IMG/VR virus record: IMGVR_UViG_3300046787_000388
Span: 1-26,427 of that record
Origin: a virus
DNA length: 26,427 nucleotides
Direction: 5' to 3' (one strand)
Every line of letters begins with the position of its first letter. The stretch's first letter is position 1. Positions 1 through 25,772 of this stretch are shown piece by piece. Below the pieces are notes generated by a model, which worked only from the letters and a program-made list of their open reading frames with translations, was not told the DNA's origin and did not search any database. Position numbers and translations under genes: made by a program.

Positions 1-3
1 GGA

Positions 4-669
4 ATGGACGCTTCTAAATATAATTCTACTTTAGAGTTTTGGATAGAAAAGTGTGGAGGTGATATAGAAGAAGCAAAACGATTATATAAAGATCGCCAAG
101 AAACGTTTAGTAAAAGGAAGTGCGTCGAGAAGCATGGAGACGAAGAAGGATTAAAAGTATGGCAAGAGCGACAGGAAAAGTGGTTAGAAACTTTAGATGC
201 CAAGAGTGATGAAGAGAAATTAGAGATTAATAGATTAAAGGCGAAAGGAATACAAAATAGTGGTCGGTCATATTCAAAAATCTCACAAGAATTATTTGTT
301 AAGATATATGACAAAATTCAAGGAGATTATTTGGTTAGATTTGCTACATTAAGAGGTGATGGAATAGTAAAAGATACAGGGGAAAATAATGAATATATGG
401 TTAATACTTTACAAGGAAATGTACGGTTTTTAGATTTTTATGCGCAAGATTTGGAAGGTAATAAATATAATATTGAATATGATGGGGATTTTTGGCATAA
501 TAACAATAATTACAAAGGAAATGTGGAGAGAGATAGTATTCGCGAGGAGCAAATCATTGAAACGCTTCCAGACATTAAAATTCTCCATATAAAAGAATTC
601 GATTATAAAGCAGATCCTGAAAAAGCGGTTAAAGAATGTTTGGAGTTTTTAAATGCAAGTACTGGATGA
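4..669 (+). CDS. Vsr-like free-standing homing endonuclease in the first terL fracture
   Basis: The 221-residue product is probably a site-specific DNA endonuclease that spreads the split-intein insertion. Residues 138-216 look like the very-short-patch-repair (Vsr)/PD-(D/E)XK type of nuclease: D144 in FLDFY, then E158-x-D160-G-D162-F-W-H165 and R176-D177 form an E-x-D...H...D pattern. Residues 8-62 hold a charged helical section with two related stretches (KDRQETFSKRKC and ERQEKW) of the kind seen in phage homing endonucleases, likely DNA-binding. The gene lies directly before a C-intein, and its 3' end overlaps the middle TerL gene by 17 bases while supplying that gene's ribosome site (GGAG at 642-645). 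The ATG at 4 is the first possible start in the window; the frame is open to base 1, so the true start could lie upstream. The Vsr-like call is by motif only. Confidence 0.78.
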   Translation: MDASKYNSTLEFWIEKCGGDIEEAKRLYKDRQETFSKRKCVEKHGDEEGLKVWQERQEKWLETLDAKSDEEKLEINRLKAKGIQNSGRSYSKISQELFVKIYDKIQGDYLVRFATLRGDGIVKDTGENNEYMVNTLQGNVRFLDFYAQDLEGNKYNIEYDGDFWHNNNNYKGNVERDSIREEQIIETLPDIKILHIKEFDYKADPEKAVKECLEFLNASTG

Positions 670-1006
670 TAAATTTACAGATATAATACATATTCATGAT
701 TATGAGATATGGACAGACAGTGGATGGGAAGAAGTTTCTGCTGTATGTAAAACTATCGAGTATCAAGAATACATATTAACATTAGATGGTTATCGGTTAA
801 TATGTGCAGATGATCATATTGTATTTTGTCAGAATGATGAGGAAAAATGTGTAAAAGATTTAACAGTAGATGATTTCGTACAAACTGAGGAAGGACTAAG
901 AAGAGTTATATCTGTAGAAGTTACAGATTCTTATAGTCAGATGTACGATGTTCAGGTTGATTCTGAAAAACATGCATATTATACAGATGGGATACTTTCG
1001 CATAAT
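653..1006 (+). other. C-terminal half of split intein 1 (P-loop insertion site)
   Basis: These 118 residues contain a block B-like motif (ICADDHIVF, residues 50-58, with the A-x-x-H form of T-x-x-H), block F (MYDVQVDSEKHAYYTDG, 97-113) and block G (ILSHN, 114-118) with the penultimate His and terminal Asn needed for Asn cyclisation. The +1 extein residue is Thr119. No block A is present, so block A must be on a separate upstream polypeptide. The break therefore lies before block B, as in the atypically split TerL inteins. There is no room for an internal endonuclease domain; the endonuclease is the separate gene upstream. Confidence 0.92.
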
Positions 1007-1660
1007 ACAACGACCGCAGGTATATATGCACTATGGAGAGCGTTGTATAGTAATATAAAGATGAATATTTATATTCTCTCAAATAAGGGAGAATCTGCAA
1101 AAGACTTCTTAAATCGTATTAAGGAAGTGTATTCTGATTTAGCGCCACATTTAAAGAGAGGAATTATAGAATGGAATAAAACTTCTATAGTTTTTGAGAA
1201 TGGTACTGCGATACATACTAGTACGACAACACCAGACTCTATTAGAGGACGATCAGTATCTCTTCTTATTCTTGATGAGTTTGCGCACGTAAGACCTGAG
1301 GTGGCAGATCCATTCTGGACATCAGCACAACCTACTGTAGCGTCTGGTACAGCACAGATCCTTATTATCTCTACACCGAATGGACAAACTGGTCAATATT
1401 ATGAATTGTGGAGAGGTGCTGAAATCGGATTGACGGATCCAGAAAAGGGTAATGGATTTAGACCATTTAGAATTGAATGGAATGAACCTCCGGGGCGAGA
1501 TGAAGAGTTTAAGAGAAAGATGATAGCAGAAACATCAAGAAGAATTTTTGCGCAAGAATATGCATGTCTTGGGTCTGATACTTATATAAATATAAAAGAC
1601 AAGTTTACGGGCGAAGTACATCGAGTCCGTATAGGAGATTTGTATGTCAAAGGCGATTAA
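653..1660 (+). CDS. terL: Terminase large subunit, middle piece (C-intein 1 + ATPase extein + N-intein 2)
   Basis: This 335-residue polypeptide is the middle third of a T4 gp17-like packaging motor. Residues 1-118 are the C-terminal part of a split intein ending in SHN. Residues 119-304 are extein beginning TTTAGIYALW, the sequence expected just after the GK of Walker A. The extein carries the Walker B/catalytic carboxylate motif SLLILDEFA (D208, E209) and the coupling motif ISTPNG (about 241-246). Residues 305-335 begin with Cys and form the N-terminal part of a second split intein. The fragment therefore has to be spliced at both ends. The start is fixed by ATG 653 with GGAG 7 bases upstream, inside the preceding endonuclease gene; the end overlaps the next endonuclease gene by 17 bases. 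It is not a degraded gene: the extein is continuous with the following TerL piece and motifs are intact. Confidence 0.93.
   Translation: MQVLDDKFTDIIHIHDYEIWTDSGWEEVSAVCKTIEYQEYILTLDGYRLICADDHIVFCQNDEEKCVKDLTVDDFVQTEEGLRRVISVEVTDSYSQMYDVQVDSEKHAYYTDGILSHNTTTAGIYALWRALYSNIKMNIYILSNKGESAKDFLNRIKEVYSDLAPHLKRGIIEWNKTSIVFENGTAIHTSTTTPDSIRGRSVSLLILDEFAHVRPEVADPFWTSAQPTVASGTAQILIISTPNGQTGQYYELWRGAEIGLTDPEKGNGFRPFRIEWNEPPGRDEEFKRKMIAETSRRIFAQEYACLGSDTYINIKDKFTGEVHRVRIGDLYVKGD
1565..1657 (+). other. N-terminal half of split intein 2 (31 residues)
   Basis: The last 31 residues of the middle TerL piece start with the catalytic Cys1 (CLGSDTYINI) and continue through FTGEVHRVRIGDLY, the usual end of intein block A, then stop. 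The junction EYA/C lies where T4 gp17 passes from the ATPase to the nuclease domain. The very short N-part resembles the roughly 25-residue N-intein of the known AceL-TerL split intein. The partner C-part begins at 2533. Confidence 0.92.
1585..1592 (+). promoter_or_regulatory. Candidate T4-type late promoter inside N-intein 2
   Basis: A perfect TATAAATA lies 51 bases upstream of the HNH endonuclease ATG (1644), within coding sequence. It could give the endonuclease and the last TerL piece their own late transcript. In AT-rich coding DNA an 8-base match can be accidental, so confidence is low. Confidence 0.35.
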
Positions 1661-2552
1661 TGATATATGTAAGATATGCGAGTGTGATGTTCAACATATG
1701 GTATTCCACGTTAAAAAACTACACGGATTAAATTTAAAACAATATTATGATAATTATATTAAGAGCAGTGAAGAGGGAAGCTGTTCTATGTGTGGGAATG
1801 AAGTAGGTTATCAGGGATATTACAAAGGTTATCCTAAATATTGTCGTAAATGTTCTAATAAGAGCGAAGAAAAAAAAATTAAAAGTGCTAAGTCTTGGGA
1901 AAATGTTGATCGCAATCAGCAACAAAAACGACGGGAAGAAACTTGTATGAAAAAATATGGAGTTAGGCATAATTTTTTGACTAAAGAATGTACCGAAAAA
2001 CGATGGGAAACTTTAAATGGTAATAAGGAAGAAATTAATGAAAAACGTAAAAAGTTTTGGAGCGACCCTGATAATGTAGCGAAGGTAGGCGAGACTAGAA
2101 AAAATACTTTTTTAGAGAGATATGGAGTTGAGAATTCGATGCAGTTAGATACTGCATATCAAAATATGAGAAAGACTATGGAGTCTACTGGTAAGTGGGC
2201 GAGTAAAGAAGAAAAATCAGAATTAGAGTGGTACGGTAGACAAGTTAGAAGAATATCATTGAGTCATTATGATGAATTATATAAAAAATGGGATGGTAGA
2301 TGTTACTATACAGGAGAGATATTAGTAAATAATGAACAATATAGGGAAGTTCATGGAGAAGATATAACTTTTAATAGTAATGATAAACAACCTACAGTAG
2401 ATCATAAAATATCTATCAAGTATGGATTTGATAATAATATACCAGAAGAAGTAATAGGAGGGATAGATAACCTATGCATTTGTGGAAAGGGAGTAAATAG
2501 TAAAAAGAATTATTTAACAGAAGAGGAGTTTCGTGAAAAATACCAGATATGA
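1644..2552 (+). CDS. Zinc-finger HNH homing endonuclease in the second terL fracture
   Basis: The 302-residue product has three parts. Residues 9-40 form a Ros/MucR-like C2H2 finger (C9-x2-C12...H22-x4-H27 followed by GLNLKQYYDNY). Residues 47-70 form a four-Cys zinc ribbon (C47-x2-C50, C67-x2-C70). Residues 100-180 repeat a KYGV/RYGVEN motif typical of DNA-binding regions of phage homing endonucleases. The C-terminus (216-290) is an HNH-type nuclease: TVDHKISI (D253, H254), IDNLCIC (N276) and NSKKN (285-289). It belongs to a different nuclease class from the endonuclease at 4-669, although the layout is the same. AGGAG at 1633-1637 sets the ATG. It overlaps the flanking TerL pieces by 17 and 20 bases, which suggests coupled translation. 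Cleavage of the intein-free terL allele is inferred, not shown. Confidence 0.82.
   Translation: MSKAINDICKICECDVQHMVFHVKKLHGLNLKQYYDNYIKSSEEGSCSMCGNEVGYQGYYKGYPKYCRKCSNKSEEKKIKSAKSWENVDRNQQQKRREETCMKKYGVRHNFLTKECTEKRWETLNGNKEEINEKRKKFWSDPDNVAKVGETRKNTFLERYGVENSMQLDTAYQNMRKTMESTGKWASKEEKSELEWYGRQVRRISLSHYDELYKKWDGRCYYTGEILVNNEQYREVHGEDITFNSNDKQPTVDHKISIKYGFDNNIPEEVIGGIDNLCICGKGVNSKKNYLTEEEFREKYQI
2522..2528 (+). promoter_or_regulatory. Ribosome-binding site fixing the GTG start of the last TerL piece
   Basis: AGAGGAG lies 4 bases before the GTG at 2533, inside the 3' end of the HNH gene. It supports independent translation of C-intein 2 plus extein starting at 2533. Confidence 0.7.
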
Positions 2553-2859
2553 AATAGAGACTCCTTATGGGTTTGTAGATTTTGATGGTATTAAGCAACT
2601 ACCAACAAAACAGATGTTACATAGAGTAACTCTTAATAATGGCACGTATTGTGATGTTACCTATAATCATGAATTTGTTGTTAATGGTATATCGGTAAAA
2701 TATAGTTCGTTGAAGAAAGGTGATCAGTTAGAGACGACAGATGGTTTGTTGGAAATACAGTCTTTAATATGTTTAGAAAAAGAAGAGTACGTGTATGATG
2801 TTTTGGAGGTTAAAAATAAGGATCATTCGTTTTATGGTAATGGTATAGTATCTCATAAT
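2533..2859 (+). other. C-terminal half of split intein 2 (109 residues)
   Basis: Block B is seen as DVTYNHEFVV (residues 41-50, with the T-x-N-H tetrad), block F as YVYDVLEVKNKDHSFYGNG (86-104) and block G as IVSHN (105-109) with His108-Asn109. The +1 residue is Cys110. The arrangement (about 30-residue N-part, about 105-residue C-part, extein CDFLG) closely resembles AceL-TerL, including the insertion point SHN/CEFLG as I recall it. Confidence 0.92.
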
Positions 2860-3657
2860 TGCGATTTTTTAGGATCATCATCTACGCTTATAAATGGCGA
2901 GGCATTGGAACGATTATCTCATATGATAAGAGAACCATTTAAGAAGTTTGATAAGTTTGATGTATGGGAAGCGCCTCAACCTAATAAGATATATGCTATA
3001 GGATGTGATGTTGCGATGGGTGTAGGTAGGGATTATAGTGTTATTCAGGTAGTGGATATTACCAATCCTATAAGATTTAAACAAGTTGCGGTATTTGCGG
3101 ATGATTATATTAAGACTTTAGATTTTACATTTAAAATCAATGAAATAGGTAGGATATACAATTATGCATTTTGTATAGTAGAAAATAATACTTATGGTGC
3201 TCAAATATGTCGAGATTTGTGGAATGATTATGAATATGAATGGTTATTTTTTGAGAAAGGCAAGAAAGAGAAGGGGGTAAATGCAAATAGGAAGACGAAA
3301 GTAAATTCAAACGCTGCATTAAAAGAATATATTGAAGAAAATCGTTTAGTTATTAATGATCAGAAAACTTTGAAAGAGTTAGAAGGTTATATTGAGATAA
3401 CTGAGGATAAGTATGGGTGTGAAGGGGAAGAATCTCATGATGACCGAGTAGATGCTTTGAGATGGGTGTGTTATTTTTCAATATCGGATTATTGGCGAGA
3501 TTTGGAAGATTTTATTAGAGAAGAGAGAGGAATAGTTAAGGGTGACTTTGTAGAATTAACTATTGGAAAAGAGGAAATATTTGAACCAGTAATATTTAAT
3601 TCTGGAGATGATATTAATAGAAAAGAGATAGATGAGGATGGTCTAATTTGGGGATAA
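2533..3657 (+). CDS. terL: Terminase large subunit, C-terminal piece (C-intein 2 + nuclease extein)
   Basis: The 374-residue product starts with a 109-residue C-intein and continues as 265 residues of extein beginning CDFLGSSSTLI, which lines up with FEGTSGTLI of T4 gp17. The extein is the RNase H-fold nuclease domain that cuts the DNA concatemer. The metal-binding acidic residues are visible as D159 (IGCDVAMG), E217 (CIVENNTYG) and D303/D304 (SHDDRVDAL). The extein sequence after the P-loop in this and the middle piece totals 451 residues, close to the corresponding part of T4 gp17 as I recall it, so nothing is missing. The start is GTG with AGAGGAG upstream. It must be joined to the middle piece by trans-splicing. 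Confidence 0.93.
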   Translation: MKNTRYEIETPYGFVDFDGIKQLPTKQMLHRVTLNNGTYCDVTYNHEFVVNGISVKYSSLKKGDQLETTDGLLEIQSLICLEKEEYVYDVLEVKNKDHSFYGNGIVSHNCDFLGSSSTLINGEALERLSHMIREPFKKFDKFDVWEAPQPNKIYAIGCDVAMGVGRDYSVIQVVDITNPIRFKQVAVFADDYIKTLDFTFKINEIGRIYNYAFCIVENNTYGAQICRDLWNDYEYEWLFFEKGKKEKGVNANRKTKVNSNAALKEYIEENRLVINDQKTLKELEGYIEITEDKYGCEGEESHDDRVDALRWVCYFSISDYWRDLEDFIREERGIVKGDFVELTIGKEEIFEPVIFNSGDDINRKEIDEDGLIWG

Positions 3658-3677
3658 ATAAGTGATGAAATAATTTT

Positions 3678-3685
3678 TATAAATA
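3678..3685 (+). promoter_or_regulatory. T4-type late promoter for the tail sheath gene
   Basis: A perfect TATAAATA in the 67-base gap between the last TerL piece and the sheath gene. The predicted RNA start near 3691 gives a leader of about 34 bases containing AGGAGAT (3714-3720) before the ATG at 3725. Confidence 0.75.
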
Positions 3686-3724
3686 CAGTTAACATATAAT
3701 ATTGTACCAGAATAGGAGATAAAA

Positions 3725-5608
3725 ATGGCAAATTCCGCACCTTCAGTAGAAATTTTCAATAGATCTTTTACTCAAACGGTTGAACCTACGTCTGATGTTG
3801 TATTCGGAACGTTAGGTTTATTCTCTAGAGGACCTGTGAATGAACTTACTTTGGTAAGTAATAATGCAGAGTTGCGGGACATTTTTGGAACTCCTGTAGA
3901 TTCATTGACTGCTAAATTCTTTTTTCCTATCGATCAAATATTAGAAATTGCTCCTGTATATGTTATTCGTGTAGAAGAAAGTGAAAAGAAATGTGCAGGA
4001 TCTACTGTTGGAATAAGCGGTGTAAATACTGTAGCGCTTGATACTCCTGTAGAAGTTTCCGCATATCCTTTGTCATATTCTTCTGTATTTGAAACAGGAG
4101 AAGATTCTAATATCGAAATTGATCCTGATGCTTTGGGTATAACTAATACCATTTCTGTTATTGCTACAGGACCGGGTGAATCGTATGAAAATGTTGGTTA
4201 TTCTATTGTTAATTATGATGACTATAAAAAATTGTTAACATTAGCATCTGATCTTGCTAGTTCTGATACCGATGCTGAACTTGTTACGGTTGGTACACTT
4301 GCTTATAATGAGTCTATTTCTGGAACTGGTATTAGTCAATCGTTGATTACAGATCTTATCGATCCTGATCATAGTTATTCGGTAGATAGTAGCTTGCTTA
4401 ATAAGTATTTGTCTTTTGAGTTCGGTCCCGCATCTTCAACTCAATTTGCGTTTTATGAATATGACGGCTCGTCTCTTGTAAATGCTTATGTGGTATCTAC
4501 TGATCCTAATGAAAAAGATGCTAGAGGAATAACTTTGTTTGCTAATAATGTTATAAATGATACTTCTACGAATTTAAAAGTATTTGTTGGGACTAGCAAA
4601 TTGACTGCAAATGCCGTTTCAGTACCTTCTATCCCAAAAACTACTTTGGGCGGAGCAGATGCTCTAACTACAACTGAATCGGAGGCGATAGGTGATTCTA
4701 TGATAGAACAACTTATTTTAAATTTCTCTTCTCGCGAAGAATTGCCAAATTTAACAGCTTTCGTAGATCTTGATTTTTCGCTTGGTGTAAAACAACGCAT
4801 GAATTCTATAGCAGAGTCTAGACAAGATACTGTAGGATTGCTCAATCATCCTGCAAGTACTATGATTGATGTTAATAGCGGTAAGAAGAAGGCAAATCAG
4901 ACTAAGTTAGTTAAAGATTATGTAGATAATACATTGGGAATTAATTCTTCTTTTTCTGCTATCTACTCTCAATATTTTGAAGTACGAGATATCTATAATG
5001 ATCAGTATGTTTGGGTTCCTGTTACAGGCCATGTGGCAAACAGAATGGCATTTACTATAGAGAATTATTCTCCATGGTATGCTATCGCTGGATTTGAGCG
5101 TGGAGTAATTACAGGAGATGTTCATAAGGTTGCATATAATCCTACAGAAGATCAGCGTAAAGTTATCTATCCTGCGAGAATTAATCCTATTGTTAATTTC
5201 CGTGGAGAAGGTATTGTGATTTTTGGACAGAAAACTCTTCAAAGTTTCTCTTCAAACACTGACCGTCTTGATATAAGAATGCTTCTTATTGCTATCAACA
5301 AAGTTGTTCGTAGAGTAAGTCGTCAGACTCTTTTCGCAAAGAATACCTCTACTACAAGAAATCTTTGGAGAAATGCGATTAATAGTTACTTAAATACTGT
5401 AGTTGCTAATGAAGGTATTTCTGAGTATCAAGTAATTGCTGATGAGTCTAACAATCCTCCTGAGGTAGTAGCAAATAAAGAATTCTATGGTTTTATTGCT
5501 GTAAGGCCAGTAAACTCTATAGAGTTTATCAAGATTTATGTCGCTGATGTGGGCGGTCAATTGACAATTACTGAAGCTCTTGATGCACTTCGTGGCGCAA
5601 ATCTCTAA
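3725..5608 (+). CDS. gp18: Tail sheath protein (gp18-like)
   Basis: The 627-residue product is the contractile sheath subunit that polymerises around the tail tube and drives DNA injection. The N-terminus (PSVEIFNRSFTQTVE, then FGTLGLFSRGPVNEL) has the usual sheath opening. The C-terminal domain (about 440-627) is the diagnostic part: GEGIVIFGQKTL near 490, then DIRMLLIAINKVVRR, an NTSTTRNLWRNAINSYL helix, and FYGFIAVRPVNSIEFIKIYV near the end. This is the conserved core that forms the interlocking beta-sheet with neighbouring subunits. Residues about 130-360 are a variable surface insertion rich in Ser/Thr/Asp. A strong AGGAGAT lies 4 bases before the ATG and a late promoter lies upstream. 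Position between terL and the tube genes follows T4 gene order (17-18-19). Confidence 0.92.
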   Translation: MANSAPSVEIFNRSFTQTVEPTSDVVFGTLGLFSRGPVNELTLVSNNAELRDIFGTPVDSLTAKFFFPIDQILEIAPVYVIRVEESEKKCAGSTVGISGVNTVALDTPVEVSAYPLSYSSVFETGEDSNIEIDPDALGITNTISVIATGPGESYENVGYSIVNYDDYKKLLTLASDLASSDTDAELVTVGTLAYNESISGTGISQSLITDLIDPDHSYSVDSSLLNKYLSFEFGPASSTQFAFYEYDGSSLVNAYVVSTDPNEKDARGITLFANNVINDTSTNLKVFVGTSKLTANAVSVPSIPKTTLGGADALTTTESEAIGDSMIEQLILNFSSREELPNLTAFVDLDFSLGVKQRMNSIAESRQDTVGLLNHPASTMIDVNSGKKKANQTKLVKDYVDNTLGINSSFSAIYSQYFEVRDIYNDQYVWVPVTGHVANRMAFTIENYSPWYAIAGFERGVITGDVHKVAYNPTEDQRKVIYPARINPIVNFRGEGIVIFGQKTLQSFSSNTDRLDIRMLLIAINKVVRRVSRQTLFAKNTSTTRNLWRNAINSYLNTVVANEGISEYQVIADESNNPPEVVANKEFYGFIAVRPVNSIEFIKIYVADVGGQLTITEALDALRGANL

Positions 5609-5619
5609 TCGATATATCA

Positions 5620-5627
5620 TATAAATA
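5620..5627 (+). promoter_or_regulatory. T4-type late promoter for the first tail tube gene
   Basis: A perfect TATAAATA in the 37-base gap after the sheath gene. The RNA start near 5633 would leave a 13-base leader that is almost entirely the strong ribosome site AAAGGAGA (5633-5640). Confidence 0.78.
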
Positions 5628-5645
5628 CAAATAAAGGAGACTAAA

Positions 5646-6188
5646 ATGAGTTGGAATTTAAATAACTTTCGAACAAATGTCAAGGCAATTGCTCTAAATC
5701 AGTATTTTATGATTGAGATCCCAGAGGTTGGAGACGTTCAAAAAATTACGGCTTTAGCCCGTACTACTGATTTGCCCGCAATGGTGCATGAAACTACTGG
5801 CGTTCCTTATAGAGGACTCGACATGAAGATTCAGACTAAGGTAACGTTTAGTGATTGGAATGTAACCTTTTTGTGTGAACAAGATCATGATCTAAGGACG
5901 AAGATGTTGACATGGCAAGCTAAGATGTATAAGTTAGATTCCGCTGCGAATAGACCACATGATGAGTATAAAGTTGATAATGTATCGGTGTCAAAGGTGG
6001 GGTATGATGGCGCGGTTATCCCTAAGACTACATGTAAATTTTTCGGGTTGTTTCCTTCTTCTGTAGGTCCGGTATCTTTGGATCAAGCTGGTGGTACTCC
6101 TGATACTTTTGATGTTACATTTACTTATGATTATTTTGTTCCTGCTGACGGATCTATTGCTGAATGGAGTGGTGGAGCTTCTTCTTAA
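5646..6188 (+). CDS. gp19: Tail tube protein, paralog 1 (gp19-like)
   Basis: The 180-residue product is the likely main tube subunit forming the inner DNA channel. It shows the gp19-type pattern: NQYFMIEIPEV near the N-terminus, a central VTFSDWNVTFLCEQDHDLRTKM segment (about 75-100), and FFGLFPSSVGPVSLDQAGG followed by FDVTFTYDYF (about 133-165). Residues 1-20 (SWNLNNFRTNVKAIALNQYF) are nearly repeated in the next gene. It has the best ribosome site of the three tube genes and its own late promoter, so it is the most likely abundant subunit; the remaining two may be minor tube, completion or variant subunits. Confidence 0.88.
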   Translation: MSWNLNNFRTNVKAIALNQYFMIEIPEVGDVQKITALARTTDLPAMVHETTGVPYRGLDMKIQTKVTFSDWNVTFLCEQDHDLRTKMLTWQAKMYKLDSAANRPHDEYKVDNVSVSKVGYDGAVIPKTTCKFFGLFPSSVGPVSLDQAGGTPDTFDVTFTYDYFVPADGSIAEWSGGASS

Positions 6189-6216
6189 TTCTGATTTAAG
6201 GATTAATGAAAACTAA

Positions 6217-6726
6217 ATGGCATGGAATTTAGCAAATTTCAGAGAGAACATAAAATCTATAGGATTAAATCAATACTTTGAAATTAATTTTGATGGCGTT
6301 GAGCATCTTAATGGATTTGATAGTGATCAGTTGACGGCTCTTTGTCGAACTACTGAACTTCCTGCAAAAGTATTAGAGACTCAGAATGTAGCGTATTATG
6401 GCGCTGATTATAAAATAGCGTCTAGAGCGACATTTAATGATTGGACGGTTACTTTTTTAGATGCTATTTTGCTTAGATCTAGTTTTGTAACATGGTGTGA
6501 TAAAGTATATGATATATCTAAATTGAAGATAGAAAATGATCATACAAAGTACAAAACTGATTCAGTTACTGTAAAAAAAACGTCAATTGAAAAAGAGGCG
6601 TCTACTATAAAATTTTACGGATTATTTCCTTCTTCTGTAGGACCAGTGAATTTTGATCAAAGTGGCGGGACTCCTACAACGTTTGATGTTACGTTTTCTT
6701 ATGATTTTTTTGTGACCGAAAAATAG
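6217..6726 (+). CDS. Tail tube protein, paralog 2 (gp19-like)
   Basis: The 169-residue product is a clear paralog of the preceding protein: AWNLANFRENIKSIGLNQYF at the N-terminus, RTTELPAKVLET, a TFNDWTVTFLDA segment, and FYGLFPSSVGPVNFDQSGGTP near the C-terminus match one by one. The start at 6217 is fixed by this alignment. The ribosome site is weak (AAGG near 6199-6202, about 14 bases from ATG), and no late promoter is seen in the 28-base gap, so it is probably translated from the upstream transcript at a lower level. It may form a specialised tube ring or alternate with paralog 1. Confidence 0.85.
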   Translation: MAWNLANFRENIKSIGLNQYFEINFDGVEHLNGFDSDQLTALCRTTELPAKVLETQNVAYYGADYKIASRATFNDWTVTFLDAILLRSSFVTWCDKVYDISKLKIENDHTKYKTDSVTVKKTSIEKEASTIKFYGLFPSSVGPVNFDQSGGTPTTFDVTFSYDFFVTEK

Positions 6727-6745
6727 TATTGTTTAAAATTCGGCA

Positions 6746-6768
6746 ACCTCTATAAATACTGATGAGGT
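6746..6768 (+). promoter_or_regulatory. Late promoter enclosed in a ribosome-site-sequestering hairpin (third tube gene)
   Basis: TATAAATA occupies 6751-6758. It forms the start of a 13-base loop between ACCTC (6746-6750) and GAGGT (6764-6768), a perfect 5-bp inverted repeat. The 3' arm is the Shine-Dalgarno sequence of the GTG start at 6775. RNA read through from upstream could pair and hide this site; RNA starting at the late promoter (near 6764) would lack the 5' arm. Confidence 0.55.
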
Positions 6769-6774
6769 ATAATT

Positions 6775-7341
6775 GTGGCGGATACGCAAAAAGGGTTTGA
6801 GTTACTTAAGTTCGGTGAAAGAACTAAGGATGGATTTGCACGAGCATATCAGTTTGCGATTAATATTAGGTCCCCCAACGATAAAAAAGGCGATGAAGAA
6901 TATTATACGACATATTGCGAGTCGATGACATTACCTCAGAGAATGTATGATACTAAAGAACTTGAGTTTTCATACGGAAAACCTAGTATAAAAATTGCAA
7001 CACAGGTTAGATTTAATAATTGGTCGGTGACTTTTAGGGATATACCGGGGTTACAACTGCGCACGGATATGCTAGAGTGGCAAGAGCTTATTGTTAATAC
7101 GACAAAAGGAAAAATGATGTATAATACCCCTAAAGATTATAAATCTAATGACTCTACAGCAAAAATAAAATTATCTCCTAGTGGAGGCGGTGATGAGAAA
7201 AGTTTAGGTATGGCTATATATAGATTTTATGGATTATATCCAGCCGATGTTAGTTCTATTACATTTTCCCATTCTGATCAAAGTTTAGTGACATTTTCGG
7301 TAGATTTTGCGTATGATTTTTTTACAGTAGATCAACAATAA
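6775..7341 (+). CDS. Tail tube protein, paralog 3 (divergent gp19-like)
   Basis: The 188-residue product is more distant from the first two but keeps the fold markers: ESMTLPQRMYDTKEL, VRFNNWSVTFRDI (about 80-92), LRTDMLEWQELI, and a C-terminal FYGLYPADVSSITFSHSDQ...FSVDFAYDFF. The start is GTG 6775 with GAGG 8 bases upstream; TTG 6773 is out of frame. It has its own late promoter. It lacks the SSVGPV motif of the other two, so it may be a tube-terminator, completion or tail-tip subunit instead of a shaft subunit. Confidence 0.78.
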   Translation: MADTQKGFELLKFGERTKDGFARAYQFAINIRSPNDKKGDEEYYTTYCESMTLPQRMYDTKELEFSYGKPSIKIATQVRFNNWSVTFRDIPGLQLRTDMLEWQELIVNTTKGKMMYNTPKDYKSNDSTAKIKLSPSGGGDEKSLGMAIYRFYGLYPADVSSITFSHSDQSLVTFSVDFAYDFFTVDQQ

Positions 7342-8196: not shown

Positions 8197-8417
8197 TGAT
8201 GGGTGATACGACGTATTTTGCGGTATGTAATGAGGAATGCTCTTTGTGGTATTTTTCAGAACGTTCTAGTTTGACTAAAATGGATACAGATGCAATGTAT
8301 CCTTATGAGCGAGGAATGACTTTAGATCTATTTAAAACATATGATGAACATATAGAACATAACAGAAAGGAACAAATGGCAAAAAAAAGCGGAAAAGAAA
8401 TCAAAACCGCTTGGTGA
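8196..8417 (+). CDS. -1 frame extension of the tail assembly protein (T-like domain) or coupled small gene
   Basis: The reading frame is open from GTG 8172, through the slippery site, to TGA 8415-8417. It has no Shine-Dalgarno sequence of its own. It can be reached either by -1 frameshifting at 8181-8187, giving a 355-residue fusion, or by re-initiation at ATG 8196, which overlaps the upstream TAA as TAATG; the coordinates given use that ATG. The encoded part is about 73 residues, with C-x3-C (FAVCNEECSLWYF), an aromatic stretch, and a charged helical C-terminus (DEHIEHNRKEQMAKK). No known domain is recognised. In lambda, the analogous T domain is only made as the fusion and helps load tube subunits on the tape measure. 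Confidence 0.6.
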   Translation: MMGDTTYFAVCNEECSLWYFSERSSLTKMDTDAMYPYERGMTLDLFKTYDEHIEHNRKEQMAKKSGKEIKTAW

Positions 8418-8433
8418 GATAAATACTATATAG

Positions 8434-11400
8434 ATGGCAAAAGAAGAAGTTACTCCTGTTTTACCAGCGACTAAAGAGGATGTGCGTTTACTGCAACGCT
8501 CTTTAGGAGGAGTTTCTACGTACTTAGCAACATTTTTTAAAGAGTTTATTTCAAGAACAAATGAAACTAAAAATGTAGCATTAGATATAAAAGGACAAAT
8601 AAAAGAATTTAAAGCTGATAGGGAAGAAATAAAAAAACAAAGTGAAAAAACACAAAAGAAGTTAGAAGGTATTGATAAAAAGTTAGAGGAAAAAAAGGAA
8701 AAGACTGAGAAGAAGGACACTAAAGAGAAGACGGAGAAAAAGGAACCTGTTGATAAAAAGGATGATGTTGTTAATTTAAAAGATAGCGTAGAATCTTTAA
8801 AACAAGAAATAGATAAGCTTAATGATAGTAAGATTGGCGAAATACAAAAGTTTTTAACGGAGTCAACTAAAGGCGGAACAGATCTTTCCATGGTGGAAAA
8901 AGATCGCGCTGATATACTTAATAGGGTCACAGAATCGTTGAGAGAGGTATCATCGCAGACATTTGATCGTATTTCTGATACTTTAAATATTCAACAAGTA
9001 AAAGATAATCAATTAGCAGATAGAAATCTTAATGCTGATAGAAAAAGTGATAAATTGATGTCTCAAGAAATGGAAAATATAGCATCTACTGATCAGCGTG
9101 AACAAAGAGAAGGTTTTGAAGCCGTATTAGAGCGTATTCATGGTTGGGCAAAGGCAGAAAATAAATTTAATAAGAAGTTAGATGATTTATCTAGTGGTAT
9201 ATGGGATTATGTAAAGTGGATGGGTCTTGGTTTTGGTTCCGGGGCCTTATTCTGGGGATGGTTAGCAAGTAAAGGGTTTTACAAACAACATTTTGATTTA
9301 TTGTTTAAAGGTACTGCGTTTATATGGAATTCTTTAGGAAAAGGAACATTAATTAAAGATATATGGGCAGGTTTTACTAAAACTGGTTCGTTTAAAATTT
9401 TAAATACTTTATCTACTCCTATAAAGTGGATGTATGATTTTTTCAAGGGGCCTAATTTAATGGCCACTGTAGCTTCTTATTTTAATAAGATTCCTAAGAT
9501 TCAAACATTAATAAGTCTTCCGTCTAAAATTATTCCTTTTTTAGATGAAGTTTTTGGTTTGGTCGGAGCGTTAGCTTCGCATACAAAATATGTGTTTACG
9601 ACATTTATAAAATCGTTCGATATAGTTAAGAAAATAACGGCGATTGCTTCCGAAAAGGGCGTTTTAGGATGGTTATTTACAAAAATAGCTGGTATTACTG
9701 GGTGGTTTGCTCAAGGTGGGATTTTTGCCAAGGGGTTTGGAATGGCTACCAAATTTGCTAAATTCCTTGCTCCTGCGATTGCAATATTTAAGGGAGTAAT
9801 GAAGATATTTGAAAATTGGGAAGAAAGAGGGTTGCTTTCAATAGTAGATGGTATAGGAGAAGGTCTTAAATCTTTTGTTATGGAAACGGTAGGTAATATT
9901 CCAGCATTGATAGGAGATTTACTTGCTCTTGTATTAGGAGATAATAATTTTATAGTAAAATTTCTTCGTAATATTAGTGCTACAATATCTACGGGATTGG
10001 ATTATATTTTAAAACCTTTTATCACTGAGTTTGAGAATATGTTTGGAGGGATTAAGAAAATTTTTAAGGGTGATATAATGGGCGGGTTATATGATATATT
10101 CCTTAAAAGTAAAGTAGATATGTTAATTGCCGCAAAAGACACTATAGTAGGTTTTGGAACAATGTTTAAAGACTGGGCTAAAGATACTTGGCCATTTAGT
10201 TTGGTATGGGGAGATGATGTAGAATCAGAAGAAACTAAAAATAAAGAAGTATTAGATGAAGTTAAAAAACTTCAAGAAAAGGCACAAGAATCTGCTGGTA
10301 TGACTGATAAATTATTTAAAGAAGGAAATTTCGATGCATTGGCAGAGCATATTGCAGTTCTTAGAGACGCTTCTGTTGCAATAACACAAAAAGAAATGGA
10401 TGCCAGCAATGCTGTGGTCGATATAAAGAATAAGTTGGGTGCTGTAGAGGATACTAAATCTGGAGAATATATTGAGTTGCAAGAAAGATTAAAACTCGCT
10501 GAAGAAAGACGAGATGCGTTAAAAGCGGAGCATGATAAAATACTTCAATATGACATAGTTAATAAAATAAACGAAGTAGGAGCAACTGGTAAACTTAATA
10601 ATAAAGATGAGATTATTAACACTTTAAAAGAAATACAACAGAAAGAAAATGAAAAACTTACGAAAAAGATAGAAGAAGGGTCAACACAAGGGGCTGTAGT
10701 AACACCTGCTCCAGTTGTATCTTCTTCTGTAGTTCCTGTTGCTCCCGTAACACCTGCTCCAGTTCCACCCGCAATTAGCACCGATTTAGGAGTCGCGTAT
10801 GCTAATGCTCTTACAGGGTTCCAAAATTTAAGAGACAAGCAAGCGGCGTTCGACAGAGAAGTTGCGGAATTTGAAGCTGAATTACAACAAGAAAAAACTT
10901 CAAAACTATCAGCAGATGTTAATAAATCTGTAGATGATAAATTAAAACAAATTCAACCTTCTATTAGCAAACCTGATGTAGTTGCATCTAAACCTATTAT
11001 ACCAACTATCAAGTCTCCTATGAATAGTATCATAGATGCTAAAATGAGTGAAGGTGTTACGCCAAGAACAATAGAAAATAGAAATACTCGTGACCGTATG
11101 ATGTTAGAATTGGCAGAGAAAGATTATAATAAGAAAGATTTAACGAAAGAAACAGAAGACGCGTTAACTGCCAAGAAGTTAGAAAATATGGATAAAATGG
11201 CAAAGTTTAGTGATAAAGAGGCGTTAGATTCTGATTTATTTTCTTATTTGGAAGCTCAAAATAAATTATTAAGTAAACATCTTGAGATGTTGGAGTCTGG
11301 AGAATTTAAAGGACAGGTAACAGTTGCTCCTCCTCGCGTAGAACCTGAGTTACCATTTAGCGAAAGAAATATGAATAATCAGCCTATTTCTAAGGTGCCA

Positions 11401-20882: not shown

Positions 20883-23800
20883 TTGGGTAATGAAATAAAG
20901 GTACTTGACGGAGAACTTCGGGAAGGTAATACCATCGAGTTATATGTTGATTTTTCTTCTGACTTCGCATCCCATCTTGCAGTCATAAAAAAATGGTATG
21001 TGTTTTTTGAGAGAAATGTAAAGTATAATCCTGACGACGATGCTTATTATTTTGAAGAACCTTATTATGGTAGTATTTTCGAAGCAACTGATACTGACAC
21101 TATTCCCATTACAAATTTACAACCGGGAAGATTGTTCTGTTGGTTTGAATATAGAGATTATAGAGGGGTTTGGCATACATTAAAACAAATATTTAAAGTA
21201 AAACCTAAATTTCAGATTACTGCTCCCGTAGAGATTATAGAAGGAGAACAAGTTACTTTTAAGGTAACAACTCCTTCCGTATTAGATACAAGGGCTGTAT
21301 GGTTATTTAATAACAATGGCGAATATATAATTAGTAATAATGTTTCTAAAACCTTTTCAACAGACGGTTATTTCCCTTATAATTTATATATTGAATATGG
21401 TTACAATAAGTATCTTGATGAAACTTTTATTAATTGGGAATCTAATCCTTCTAGTAAATTAGTAGGTGTTACTGGAGGTGGTATTTTTGGTGGTGAAGGC
21501 GTTCAAAGGTGGTTTGAATCTTTTACCGAAAGTGTGTCTGGAAATTATTTAGTAAAATATGATTTAACTAAAAGTATCGCATTAGATTTTCAGTTAGATC
21601 ATGGTTTTGATGACCAAAATGGCGCTCCTCTTTTAGTTACATTTAAAGATTTGTCTTCGTATGGGGAGTTAGGATTTGACACGCCAACTCATAGATTGGA
21701 GTATGTAGAAATTGCTTTCGGAGATGGAGAAATTATAAAGAAAACTGAAATTAATTTTGAACAAAATAAAATTTATAATAATAGCGGAACGTACACTGGT
21801 TCTTATATTGTGCATACTCTGCATTCTTTGTCTGGTAGTAATATAGAATATCGACAGAGTATAAGTAAAAACTTTGAAGTCAGTGTTAATCCATTTTTTG
21901 ATAGATGGTTCAAGGATCACACCCAAGAGTCGTTATTTAATAGTCAAGGGTTTAATGATATAGCTAAAGGATGGGGTCTACAGATGGATCGTCTGTATAA
22001 CGATGCAAAGGATTTTATCGAGAGTATTGATGTCGAAAAAATAAATGATAGTTTTGTTAAAAGTTTCTTTAATACGTATGGAGATTTTCCTGAAATTGCT
22101 GAAAAAGTAGGATTTAAAAGTTTTACCGATGGACGCGACGATAAATTTTCTTTTTTCAATGATTATAATTTTTTTGATAGATTGGAAAAACGGACTATTA
22201 CTCCAGAAGAAAAAAAAGAATTTATAGACTATGTTCGGGATAGTATTAAAAGTTTACAAAATAAAGGAACCCCTAGTTCGGTTGAACGTGAGATTAAAAG
22301 ATTTAGATTATTAGGAACTTTTGTTGAGTTATGGATTACAGATTATAGTAAAAAACAGACAAAATTTAGCGACAATGTGTTTGTTAATAATAAAAAAACA
22401 GAAACTGGATTGACGTATAGAAATGTTTCAACTCCTAGTTCTGATAATGTGAACGTTCCAATTGGAAATAATAAATATACTCCATATATCGAAGTAAATA
22501 CTATTGAAGATAGTGTCGCATATCATTATACAGATGAATCTGAGATTAGGATTATAGATGGCGTTGAATATGCAGTGTTTAATAAACCAAATAATGGTGT
22601 TGTTAAATTTCAACAAAGTAGTTATACTGTAGCAGAAACTGCTGGAAGTATTACAGTACCTGTTCTTAGAAGTGGTTCTTTTACTGGAAAAGTGTCGGTG
22701 AAATATGCTACTACGGTTGGAACTGCCAATGATAGATCTGATTATTTTGCTGTTAATGGAGAATTGGTATGGGAAGATGGGGATTCTACTTCTAAGTCAA
22801 TTACGGTTAAATTAATAGATGATTCTGAGTACGAAGCACAGGAAACTTTTGCAATTACTTTGTATGATCCTAAAGGCGGGGCGACTTTAGGCAGTAAAAA
22901 TTCAACGATTATTACCATTACTTCGGATGATCCTGTAAGGTATGGACAATTACAATTTACTCAATTATTATATGAGGCGAATGAGGAAGATGGATTTGTA
23001 GATATTGAGGTTAGAAGAGTAAATGGTTATGATGGTATAATAACAGTAGATTACAGCACAAGTGACGGAACGGCTTTAGTCGGAGAGGATTATTTACAAG
23101 CTACTGGTACGTTGACATGGGCGGATAAAGATACTGACAATAAAACATTTAGAGCATATCTTATAAATGATGTTGAGCGTGAAGGCAGTGAAACTATTGA
23201 GTTGGCATTAACTAATGCCACTGGAGGAGCCACTTTAGGATTTAGAGAGTTTGCCACTATTTCTATTGTGTTGAATGATGTTCCAGAAGTAGGTACCATA
23301 CAGTTTGAAAATTTAACTTCCGCTGTATTGGAAACTATGGGTGAAATTCAGATTGTGGTGAAAAGAGTTGGTGGTACTTTAGGTGTTGTCACTGTTGAAT
23401 ATGAGACTAGAAATGATACCGCTATTGCGGGAATACATTATAGTTCTGTAATGGGTACTCTTACATGGAATTCTGGTGAAAATGATGACAAGGTAATAAC
23501 GATACCTATTGTTGATGATAGTGATAATAATGAAGATAGATTATTTAGTGTATTACTTAGAAATCCAACAGGAGGGGCTAATTTAGGAGAAAGCACGCAT
23601 GTTGTTAGTATACAGAATGATGAGGCGGAGAATAATGGTGTTATTCAATTTCAAAATACAGTTTATAATGTAAATGAAGAGGATGGTTCTGTCATACTAG
23701 GATTAACCAGAACGGGCGGATTTACTGGTATTGTTTCTGCTAGATATTTTACGGAGAATGGAACCGCGACATATGCTGATTATGAACCATCTTCCGAGTA

Positions 23801-25772
23801 TGTAGTATGGTTTAATGGGGATTCATTAAATAAAGGAATATCCATAGATATTCTTAATAACAATGAATATACAGGAGTTAGAACATTCTCTGTTACTTTA
23901 TCCGATCCTACAGGAGGAGCGACCATAGGAACAAATTCTACAGCTTTTGTTAATATTACAGACGACGAGGATCCACAGTATGGCATACTTAGTTTTGTTA
24001 ATTCGCAATATGTTGTTAGTGAACAAAGCGCCTCATCTGCGTTAGGAGATGGAGATTTTAGTAAGGTATCTGTCGGCGTTCAGAGAACTGGAGGATTCGA
24101 TGGGGCAGTTTCTGTGGACTACGAAATTGTGGCGTCTAGTGCCACAGAAGGTGTTGATTATTATGCGGATGCATATGCAGGTACATTAACTTGGGCAAAT
24201 GGCGAATTTGATATAAAAAGTTTTGAAATTCAAATATTAGAAGATTCTATATTTGAAGATGATGAAGTTATAAATGTATTTCTAAAAAATCCTGTTAGTG
24301 CTGTTGTAGGATTATCCGCATCCATTGTTACAATAGAAGACAATGAGAATGGAGAATTTAGATTTTCATCATCAATTTTTTCTGCAAATGAGGCCATATC
24401 AAACATAACTACAACTATTGAGCGTTATAATGGTAAACAAGGTTTGGTAACCGTAGACTATATTACTATGGCAGGTACGGCTTTAGAAGGAGTAGATTAT
24501 ATAAAAACTCAAGGGACTTTGAGTTGGGCGGATCAAGATAATGCTCCTAAAAATGTAATTATTCCGTTGATAAATGATGGGTTTAAAGAAGGAACCGAAA
24601 CATTTTATATTCAATTGTCTAACCCCACGGGAGGAGCAGCGTTGTCTACTCCTATATCAGCGTCTTTAAGTATTGTTGATGATGAATTTACTTCTGACAA
24701 TGGCGTATTAAAGTTTGAATCCTCATTATATTCCGTGACAGAAAATGCATCAACCGTGCAGATTGTTGTTACAAGAGAAGAGGGCAGTAGTGGTAACATC
24801 ACTGTAGATTATGCTACAGCTAATGGAACTGCTATTGCGGGGACGCACTATTTAACTAAAAGCGGAACATTGGGATGGGCCGCTGGCGATAACTCGTCTA
24901 AAAGTTTCTTTGTTACAATTCTCAACAATTCAGAATATGATTTTGCTTCTCCTAGATCCTTTAAGATTTCATTGAGCAATCCTTCTGGTGGTGCGCTAAT
25001 TGTTATTGGTGAAACGACCGTAAATATTACCGAAGATGACGTATATACAGAGAAGGTGTGGTATTTTGATGGTATAGATAACAGAGTAGATTTATCGAGT
25101 CAAATTAAACCGTATTCAAGTTCCAATCAGGCATATGCAATAGGGTTTTGGGCTAATTTTTATACATTGAGTGATGGTGGAACAGTATTTAAAATTTATG
25201 ACGAAACTAATCCAGCATACAATATTTTAGATATTTCGAAAGGATCGGATTTAACATTTACCGTTGGAGGTAGTGGAGTTGGAGTTGACGCTACTGAACT
25301 TACGGTATCTGGTATTAGTGGTAATCAATATTATTTTACATGGATACAAGATATTTCTGGTGATGTAAAAGTGTATGTTGCTCCGGAAAATGGAACTCTA
25401 AGTGCTGGATATTCAGATACTTATACTGCAAATATGAGTTCTTCTGAAAATTATACGAGTACGTTGGGTGCCTATTTTAATGGTTCTTCTTATAGTGATT
25501 ATTGTGAAATGGCTGTGGCATGGTTTGGATATTGGGAATTTTCAACTTTGCCTACAGTAGGGGTTTTAACCGCAATCCGCGAGGGAGCGTTTAATGGTGG
25601 TCAGATTCCTGTAGACTTAACATTAGAGGACACTCCTCCTAACATATGGTATAGATTTGGCAATACAACAGGAGATGCTATTACTAATAGTAGCGGAGGG
25701 TTAAAGGATTATATAGGAAGCAATGATGCAAATCCTTTTAATTTTTCTTCTGGGGACGAGACTGACATATGA
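20883..25772 (+). CDS. Giant gp7-like baseplate wedge protein with seven Calx-beta domains and lectin-like C-terminus
   Basis: The 1629-residue product starts at TTG 20883, one base after the gp6 stop. Residues 1-335 contain Ig/PKD-like beta domains (YVEIAFGDGE...NNSGTYTGSYIVHT near 276-318). Residues about 337-500 (FFDRWFKDHTQESLFNSQGF to GTFVELWITDYSKKQ) look like the gp7/gpI-type wedge region. Seven tandem Calx-beta domains follow, starting near residues 572, 688, 804, 919, 1034, 1157 and 1274, each about 115 residues with the pattern VxYxTxxGTAxxGxDY...GTLxWxxGdxxxK...I.dDxxxE..E.F.v.L.NPTGGAxLG. Residues 1388-1629 resemble a concanavalin/LamG fold (WYFDGIDNRVDL, YAIGFWANFY, WYRFGN). Calx-beta domains often bind Ca2+; surface or host contact is a reasonable inference. 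T4 gp7 is about 1030 residues and has no such repeats. Wedge assignment relies on order. Confidence 0.78.
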   Translation: MGNEIKVLDGELREGNTIELYVDFSSDFASHLAVIKKWYVFFERNVKYNPDDDAYYFEEPYYGSIFEATDTDTIPITNLQPGRLFCWFEYRDYRGVWHTLKQIFKVKPKFQITAPVEIIEGEQVTFKVTTPSVLDTRAVWLFNNNGEYIISNNVSKTFSTDGYFPYNLYIEYGYNKYLDETFINWESNPSSKLVGVTGGGIFGGEGVQRWFESFTESVSGNYLVKYDLTKSIALDFQLDHGFDDQNGAPLLVTFKDLSSYGELGFDTPTHRLEYVEIAFGDGEIIKKTEINFEQNKIYNNSGTYTGSYIVHTLHSLSGSNIEYRQSISKNFEVSVNPFFDRWFKDHTQESLFNSQGFNDIAKGWGLQMDRLYNDAKDFIESIDVEKINDSFVKSFFNTYGDFPEIAEKVGFKSFTDGRDDKFSFFNDYNFFDRLEKRTITPEEKKEFIDYVRDSIKSLQNKGTPSSVEREIKRFRLLGTFVELWITDYSKKQTKFSDNVFVNNKKTETGLTYRNVSTPSSDNVNVPIGNNKYTPYIEVNTIEDSVAYHYTDESEIRIIDGVEYAVFNKPNNGVVKFQQSSYTVAETAGSITVPVLRSGSFTGKVSVKYATTVGTANDRSDYFAVNGELVWEDGDSTSKSITVKLIDDSEYEAQETFAITLYDPKGGATLGSKNSTIITITSDDPVRYGQLQFTQLLYEANEEDGFVDIEVRRVNGYDGIITVDYSTSDGTALVGEDYLQATGTLTWADKDTDNKTFRAYLINDVEREGSETIELALTNATGGATLGFREFATISIVLNDVPEVGTIQFENLTSAVLETMGEIQIVVKRVGGTLGVVTVEYETRNDTAIAGIHYSSVMGTLTWNSGENDDKVITIPIVDDSDNNEDRLFSVLLRNPTGGANLGESTHVVSIQNDEAENNGVIQFQNTVYNVNEEDGSVILGLTRTGGFTGIVSARYFTENGTATYADYEPSSEYVVWFNGDSLNKGISIDILNNNEYTGVRTFSVTLSDPTGGATIGTNSTAFVNITDDEDPQYGILSFVNSQYVVSEQSASSALGDGDFSKVSVGVQRTGGFDGAVSVDYEIVASSATEGVDYYADAYAGTLTWANGEFDIKSFEIQILEDSIFEDDEVINVFLKNPVSAVVGLSASIVTIEDNENGEFRFSSSIFSANEAISNITTTIERYNGKQGLVTVDYITMAGTALEGVDYIKTQGTLSWADQDNAPKNVIIPLINDGFKEGTETFYIQLSNPTGGAALSTPISASLSIVDDEFTSDNGVLKFESSLYSVTENASTVQIVVTREEGSSGNITVDYATANGTAIAGTHYLTKSGTLGWAAGDNSSKSFFVTILNNSEYDFASPRSFKISLSNPSGGALIVIGETTVNITEDDVYTEKVWYFDGIDNRVDLSSQIKPYSSSNQAYAIGFWANFYTLSDGGTVFKIYDETNPAYNILDISKGSDLTFTVGGSGVGVDATELTVSGISGNQYYFTWIQDISGDVKVYVAPENGTLSAGYSDTYTANMSSSENYTSTLGAYFNGSSYSDYCEMAVAWFGYWEFSTLPTVGVLTAIREGAFNGGQIPVDLTLEDTPPNIWYRFGNTTGDAITNSSGGLKDYIGSNDANPFNFSSGDETDI
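22596..25043 (+). repeat. Seven tandem Calx-beta domain repeats
   Basis: Units begin near 22596, 22944, 23292, 23637, 23982, 24351 and 24702. Shared landmarks are 'G.LxF....Y...E' at each start, 'V(D/E/K)Y.T..GTA' in the middle, 'GTLTWA' or similar, and 'L.NPTGGA.LG' plus 'I.DD' at the end. Units 1-4 and 6-7 are 115-117 residues; unit 5 is about 123 with an insertion (SASSALGDGDFSK). Sequence identity is moderate, so these are old duplications. Confidence 0.88.

Follow-up and report, generated by a model that had tools for sequence, protein, structure and literature searches.

A phage terminase gene fractured at two sites by split inteins and predicted to be reassembled by protein trans-splicing

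The gene for the large terminase subunit (terL; gene 17 of T4) at the start of IMG/VR virus record IMGVR_UViG_3300046787_000388 is divided between separate open reading frames (ORFs) that bear intein halves at their broken ends. Judging from sequence, this gene was probably (at about 0.88) invaded independently at two sites by split inteins with endonucleases, and its packaging motor is made as three polypeptides that are trans-spliced. The window analyzed is the whole record (26,427 bases, linear, probably a fragment) and comes from a T4-like phage of bacteria. Its first base falls inside the endonuclease 1 gene of the terL region, in a frame that is open at base 1, so the upstream sequence, including the first terL piece (piece 1), is missing.

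All features of the region lie on the plus strand. The 3' part of endonuclease 1 (1-669), a Vsr-like or PD-(D/E)XK-type candidate whose gene begins upstream of the contig, occupies break 1 and is followed by piece 2 (653-1660). This piece consists of C-intein 1 (653-1006; 118 amino acids (aa), ending GILSHN, with Thr as +1 nucleophile) at site 1, the Walker A GK/T (a slash marks each junction), the TerL ATPase core from the P-loop Thr to ...QEYA (1007-1564; Walker B LLILDEFA, coupling motif STPNG), and the Cys-led N-intein 2 (1565-1657; 31 aa, CLGSDTYINIKDKFTGEVHRVRIGDLYVKGD; stop codon 1658-1660). Break 2 holds endonuclease 2 (1644-2552), an HNH or endonuclease VII-like homing endonuclease with PHROG matches. 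Piece 3 (2533-3657) has a GTG start and comprises C-intein 2 (2533-2859; 109 aa, ending GIVSHN, with Cys as +1 nucleophile) at site 2, between the ATPase and nuclease domains, and the RNase H-like nuclease domain of TerL, with its D..E..DD residues kept (2860-3654; stop codon 3655-3657). A first-pass annotation of the letters had given the same coordinates for ORFs and intein halves, and all hold when ORFs and alignments are re-checked; the homing-endonuclease gene that it placed in each break is likewise present, that of break 1 as a 3' part with its class assigned by a weak match. The four ORFs of the region overlap by 17, 17, and 20 nucleotides (nt) in differing frames, endonuclease 2 overlapping N-intein 2 by 17 nt and C-intein 2 by 20 nt. 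In-frame stops lie shortly before the starts at 653, 1644, and 2533 (at 650 (TAA), 1632, and 2515, respectively), and these starts are preceded by the ribosome-binding sites GGAG, AGGAG, and GAGGAG, each within the preceding ORF; GGAG is the Shine-Dalgarno sequence of the ATG at 653.

Both splice junctions are fixed to the residue because the nearest relative, L074 (IMGVR_UViG_3300023109_000056), shows the empty sites. Its terL is uninterrupted (535 aa) and shares 86% identity with the window over the ATPase segment and 72% over the nuclease. L074 reads ...PRQTGK/TTTAGIYALW... at site 1 and ...QEYN/CSFLGSSSTL... at site 2, and the window reads ...GILSHN/TTTAGIYALW..., ...QEYA/CLGSDTY..., and ...GIVSHN/CDFLGSSSTL..., with N-intein 2 beginning exactly at the empty site QEYN/C. 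Site 1 separates the Lys of Walker A from its Thr, and site 2 is the ATPase-nuclease border; about 70 further terL loci from the same query are uninterrupted at both. Purifying selection acts on the ATPase extein of the window, which differs from that of L074 with a non-synonymous proportion (pN) of 0.10 and a synonymous one (pS) of 0.70, the tail sheath gene being similar; synonymous divergence (dS) is near saturation, and therefore only the direction of these values (strongly purifying) is safe.

The terminase identity of the exteins is supported, well above chance, by Pfam (Terminase_6N in piece 2, 6.7e-13; Terminase_6C in piece 3, 2.1e-8) and by matches of piece 2 to the T4 gp17 ATPase (9e-22) and of piece 3 to the T4/RB49 gp17 nuclease (4.5e-17). 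In gp17 alignments and structure matches, all ATPase and nuclease motifs are intact once the pieces are joined. Database searches confirm the intein identity of the halves, first proposed from the letters alone. C-inteins 1 and 2 score 19.7 and 23.9 bits, respectively, with TIGR01443 (intein_Cterm; curated cut-off 15.6 bits, exceeded by both); C-intein 2 matches Cat, a consensus intein of the atypical split type (7.5e-10), and C-intein 1 the PDB sequences of VidaL (4e-6), Cat (9e-6), and gp41-1 (3e-5). N-intein 2 shares 13-15 of 27-29 residues with the N-inteins of L175, L102, and Vibrio phage VP-1. Alignment-based structure models, built without rows from named phage records, reach a mean predicted local distance difference test score (pLDDT) of 80 for piece 3 and 75 for piece 2. 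In Foldseek, the piece 3 model finds first the T4 gp17 nuclease (3e-16) and then inteins (Cat for C-intein 2, with a template modelling (TM) score of 0.78 and 33% identity), and the piece 2 model finds first the T4 gp17 ATPase and then inteins (VidaL, 4.2e-6, for C-intein 1).

Split inteins, each accompanied by a homing-endonuclease gene of its own, probably entered terL in independent events at two conserved sites, and one gene cluster would encode the packaging motor in the form of three polypeptides. N-intein 1 of piece 1 is predicted to bind C-intein 1 of piece 2, which would join GK to TTT and restore Walker A. N-intein 2, which ends piece 2, would bind C-intein 2 of piece 3 and join the ATPase to the nuclease via Cys+1, so that the two trans-splicing reactions would yield a single continuous TerL chain of about 530 residues. 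The endonucleases would cut uninterrupted terL alleles at or near both sites and so spread the breaks. It is reasonable to suppose that partial TerL products could not work as a motor.

For piece 1, an N-terminal extein ending in GK and a Cys-led N-intein of about 25-35 residues had been predicted, and both are carried by the relatives L173, L174, and L089 (N-inteins of 35-37 aa). L173, reached through a search with endonuclease 2, has a complete three-piece terL at the two sites of the window (3017-3379, 3423-4436, and 5521-6576, with an endonuclease-2 homologue at 4533-5540), and its piece 1 ends ARQYGK/CFLGDSKIKIRNKKTGEIKEISIEDFYTKIKNEKK, with an N-intein of 35 aa. The three-piece terL of L174 comes with both endonucleases (2953-3342, 3506-4450, 4437-5864, 5974-7089, and 8386-9483); piece 1 ends PRQAGK/CINYWGK... 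(35 aa), and piece 2 also holds a contiguous third intein. L089 is the closest contig with a site-1 C-intein and has a 119-aa ORF ending PRQSGK/CEFFDTKIKIRNKKTGEIKEISIGDFFELMEQEEKNS (CEFFDTK..., 37 aa), followed by 548 nt with only an endonuclease remnant and then by C-intein, ATPase, and nuclease in one ORF. L170 (with endonuclease 1 only) and L224/L226 (with endonuclease 2 only) also have a complete terL in three pieces, split where that of the window is, and L230, L279, and L246/L247 add further three-piece genes at these sites.

Endonuclease 1 matches PF18741 (MTES_1575) weakly (E 0.0022, below the curated cut-off) and is 37% identical to the break-1 endonuclease of L174; its relatives at the same place combine an N-terminal Ros/MucR-type zinc finger with DUF559/MTES_1575, and that of L148 scores 25.6 bits for DUF559 vs. 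a cut-off of 20.6. Endonuclease 2 matches PHROG homing endonuclease (5.8e-10) and endonuclease VII (1.8e-7), and has homologues in break 2 of L173 (43% identical), L174 (41%), and L224. A PDB sequence search with both endonucleases gave nothing meaningful. When the region upstream of the window was sought via endonuclease 1, only relatives of 34-35% identity appeared and piece 1 of the window phage was not recovered; a second terL was not found on the 26.4-kb contig.

The anatomy recurs in independent lineages. A survey that scanned with an N-piece alignment, in a sample enriched for inteins, so that its counts are not a frequency in nature, gave 127 loci with all three extein parts (42 in one ORF, 59 in two, and 26 in three or more). 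About 20 non-redundant loci with at least three pieces remain once a misassigned locus, a repeated contig, and identical pairs are taken out. In many, the second break is at or near Walker B instead of site 2 (L091, L092, L156, L172, L213, L241), and four pieces with three split inteins are found in L264 and L228/L227, piece 3 of L264 adding a contiguous LAGLIDADG-like intein. The double-fractured terL is not described in the literature searched. It is not unique to the window: it recurs widely and in four-piece versions too.

Some candidates were dropped in this analysis. L128 was considered for sites 1 and 2, but it has contiguous inteins, and the break in its ORF does not coincide with one. 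L175 was a classifier misassignment and has two pieces, split at site 2. L141 is not a clean three-piece case, its N-terminal ORF ending SRQMGGMNLPM without an N-intein; in L141 and L187 (a 305-kb contig) pieces 2 and 3 of terL lie side by side, and this N-terminal ORF, ending ...LSRQMGGMNLPM, lies about 14 kb off.

In a C-intein tree (n=53, with the row s2_L125, cut at the wrong motif, disregarded), all 22 site-1 C-inteins, contiguous and split and including those of Ackermannviridae, form one clade (100/99). C-intein 2 of the window falls outside it, the two C-inteins of the window thus belonging to different clades. On the nuclease-extein tree, the window groups with the unsplit L074 and the site-1-split L089, and three pieces at sites 1 and 2 require at least three changes. 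Between Vibrio phages VP-1 and BX-1 the nuclease hardly differs, yet only VP-1 is split at site 2; this pair and the tree distribution have the pattern that would be expected of homing.

Among cultured phages, Salicola phage SCTP-2 (MF360958, 440 kb), which infects two hosts in culture (PMC6518143), has three TerL pieces, each annotated "terminase large subunit," which are separated by about 38 and 172 kb and occupy both strands. Gp534 (429,356-429,748, minus strand) ends LARQLGK/CVDYETN...; gp267 (256,428-257,321, plus strand) combines a site-1 C-intein with part of the ATPase and SISLLY/CLDGETTV...; and gp224 (215,993-218,077, minus strand) has a C-intein, CDEFAF..., a contiguous intein, and the nuclease. 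Whole-genome searches of SCTP-2 found no other T4-type terL. Since the pieces lie on both strands and far apart, no single transcript could contain all three, and this layout makes RNA-level joining or frameshifting very unlikely and protein trans-splicing the straightforward route. In Vibrio phage vB_VmeM-32, a split at site 1 divides terL into pieces that lie on opposite strands.

Several observations weigh against two split inteins and three trans-spliced chains in the window phage. Its own piece 1 is off the contig, N-intein 1 being predicted from relatives. The penultimate His is absent from C-intein 2 of L173, L230, and L246/L247, and therefore not every copy need be fully active. The N-inteins of sites 1 and 2 are similar and not separable by sequence, which lends no support to specific, orthogonal pairing. 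It is also conceivable that the pieces function unspliced, ATPase and nuclease fragments associating non-covalently and the intein halves being inert passengers, as the trans-splicing of the window pieces is read from sequence and the split NrdA of Aeromonas phage Aeh1, divided by an endonuclease, works as separate chains (PMC2988022). This is quite improbable, given that Cys1, the block-B His (ADDH, TYNH), the penultimate His, the terminal Asn, and the +1 nucleophiles are all kept in the window, that site 1 cuts GK/T and unspliced piece 2 would bear a 118-aa domain at its P-loop, and that natural split inteins with this geometry are reported to be active (PMC11766414).

A decaying or artefactual locus, in which terL is a pseudogene or a chimeric assembly has lost piece 1, would agree with a contig that starts inside the first break and with the N-terminal terL ORF of L141 that ends before any N-intein. 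It is rated marginally lower still, as the ATPase extein is under purifying selection, every ATPase and nuclease motif is intact, and many independent contigs and a cultured phage share the anatomy. Joining at the RNA level, by group I/II introns or programmed frameshifting that would give one mRNA or ORF, has parallels in Jug phages, where group I introns divide terL into 2-3 fragments (PMC12363816), and in vibriophage ICP1, whose terL is RNA-spliced (PMC10448857). It is the least probable explanation: an Rfam search, introns included, found no family in the window, L089, L173, or L174, the break edges encode intein motifs with junctions falling on splice residues, and the SCTP-2 pieces lie on opposite strands. 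Trans-splicing of three polypeptides is the preferred reading.

Related arrangements were seen elsewhere in the sample. In Delftia phage phiW-14 (L192), an unannotated N-terminal TerL piece with an N-intein lies at about 3521-3940, upstream of gene 47, which starts with the matching C-intein. An endonuclease ORF in another frame is found inside the contiguous site-1 inteins of L102 (5798-7984, ORF 6165-7004) and L154 (4212-7010, ORF 4564-5400); the intein frame stays open through it for about 280 codons, and this could be an intermediate toward a fractured gene. In L212, L128, and L280, the terL ORF is broken at an intein-free point between the coupling motif and site 2, and an extra ORF like the N-terminal ATPase part of TerL, possibly a paralogue or relic, stands directly upstream of terL in L156 (3323-3919) and L175 (4169-5074). 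The same P-loop split-intein family is found in an SbcC/gp46-like gene of L096 (6669-8941; SNGSGK/CVTHDVMITIRDK), and therefore appears to home to P-loops of other phage genes. A split intein also fractures the Family B DNA polymerase gene of L075 (3752-7862), whose parts enclose a Vsr-like endonuclease.

The order of the window from base 1, terL parts, tail sheath, tail tube genes, and then other virion genes, is a T4-like phage pattern. Three gp19-like tail tube genes stand in a row (5646-7341), and a 1629-aa virion ORF (20883-25772) has many VxVxRxGGxxGxVxVDYxTxxGTAxxGxDY repeats, Calx-beta-like by eye.

It is about an even call that multiple fracturing of terL is common, the motor of many lineages being made as three or four polypeptides and coming into existence only through two or three mutually specific trans-splicings, with packaging gated by splicing and intein pairs selected against cross-reaction. 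If so, protein splicing would gate phage DNA packaging. Selection should favour orthogonality, because cross-reaction would cyclise the middle segment or skip the ATPase. The terL sets would be natural, co-evolved atypical split inteins, with a middle segment bearing both the C-terminal (IntC) and the N-terminal (IntN) half. Homing elements could turn one gene into a multi-part one, ending in genome-scattered pieces as in SCTP-2. Fracturing would also account for the frequent annotation of terL, a standard marker gene of phages, as truncated, missing, or "hypothetical."

Single fractures, atypically split TerL inteins, P-loop TerL inteins, intron-split terL, and engineered three-segment splicing are known; double or multiple split-intein fracture of one natural gene is what goes beyond the known single fractures. 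In the literature searched, no natural protein needing at least two trans-splicings and no natural gene broken by at least two split inteins was found, and subscription papers could contain an earlier mention. In the fractured genes that Dassa et al. reportedly described in 2009, a conserved phage enzyme gene is broken in two by a split intein, with a free-standing endonuclease of the Vsr-like family in the break. The terL of the window is likewise broken by split inteins with a free-standing endonuclease gene in the break, but has three parts rather than two, the middle one bounded on either side by an intein half.

AceL-TerL, GOS-TerL, and Cat (PDB 6dsl, a derived intein) are reported active and atypically split, with an IntN of 25-37 aa and an IntC of 104-115 aa (PMC11766414). 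Intein 2 of the window resembles AceL-TerL and Cat in its 31 + 109 aa, Cys1/Cys+1, and terminal His-Asn (CLGSD... and ...GIVSHN/CDFLG); each of the three is reported as a single split intein, whereas intein 2 is the second of two in one gene, and the site-1 intein differs from AceL-TerL and Cat in having Thr+1 and belonging to another clade. The P-loop TerL inteins, TerL1-a of mycobacteriophages (PMC5050341) and the contiguous site-1 inteins of Ackermannviridae, likewise interrupt Walker A after its invariant Lys and before the Thr, but are single-ORF cis inteins, whereas that of the window is split. Aeromonas phage PX29 (17A/17B) and VP-1 have terL split at site 2, and VP-1 has a site-1 intein too; both have two pieces only, and the site-1 intein of VP-1 is contiguous. 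SCTP-2 has, like the window, three TerL pieces with split inteins at GK/T and a second site, but its second break is at Walker B, piece 3 holds an extra cis intein, and its pieces are dispersed over the two strands. Engineered tandem trans-splicing (PMC12707363) likewise uses three segments and two orthogonal split inteins, but is man-made; this handmade design of protein chemists is one that nature appears to use, repeatedly, for an essential motor.

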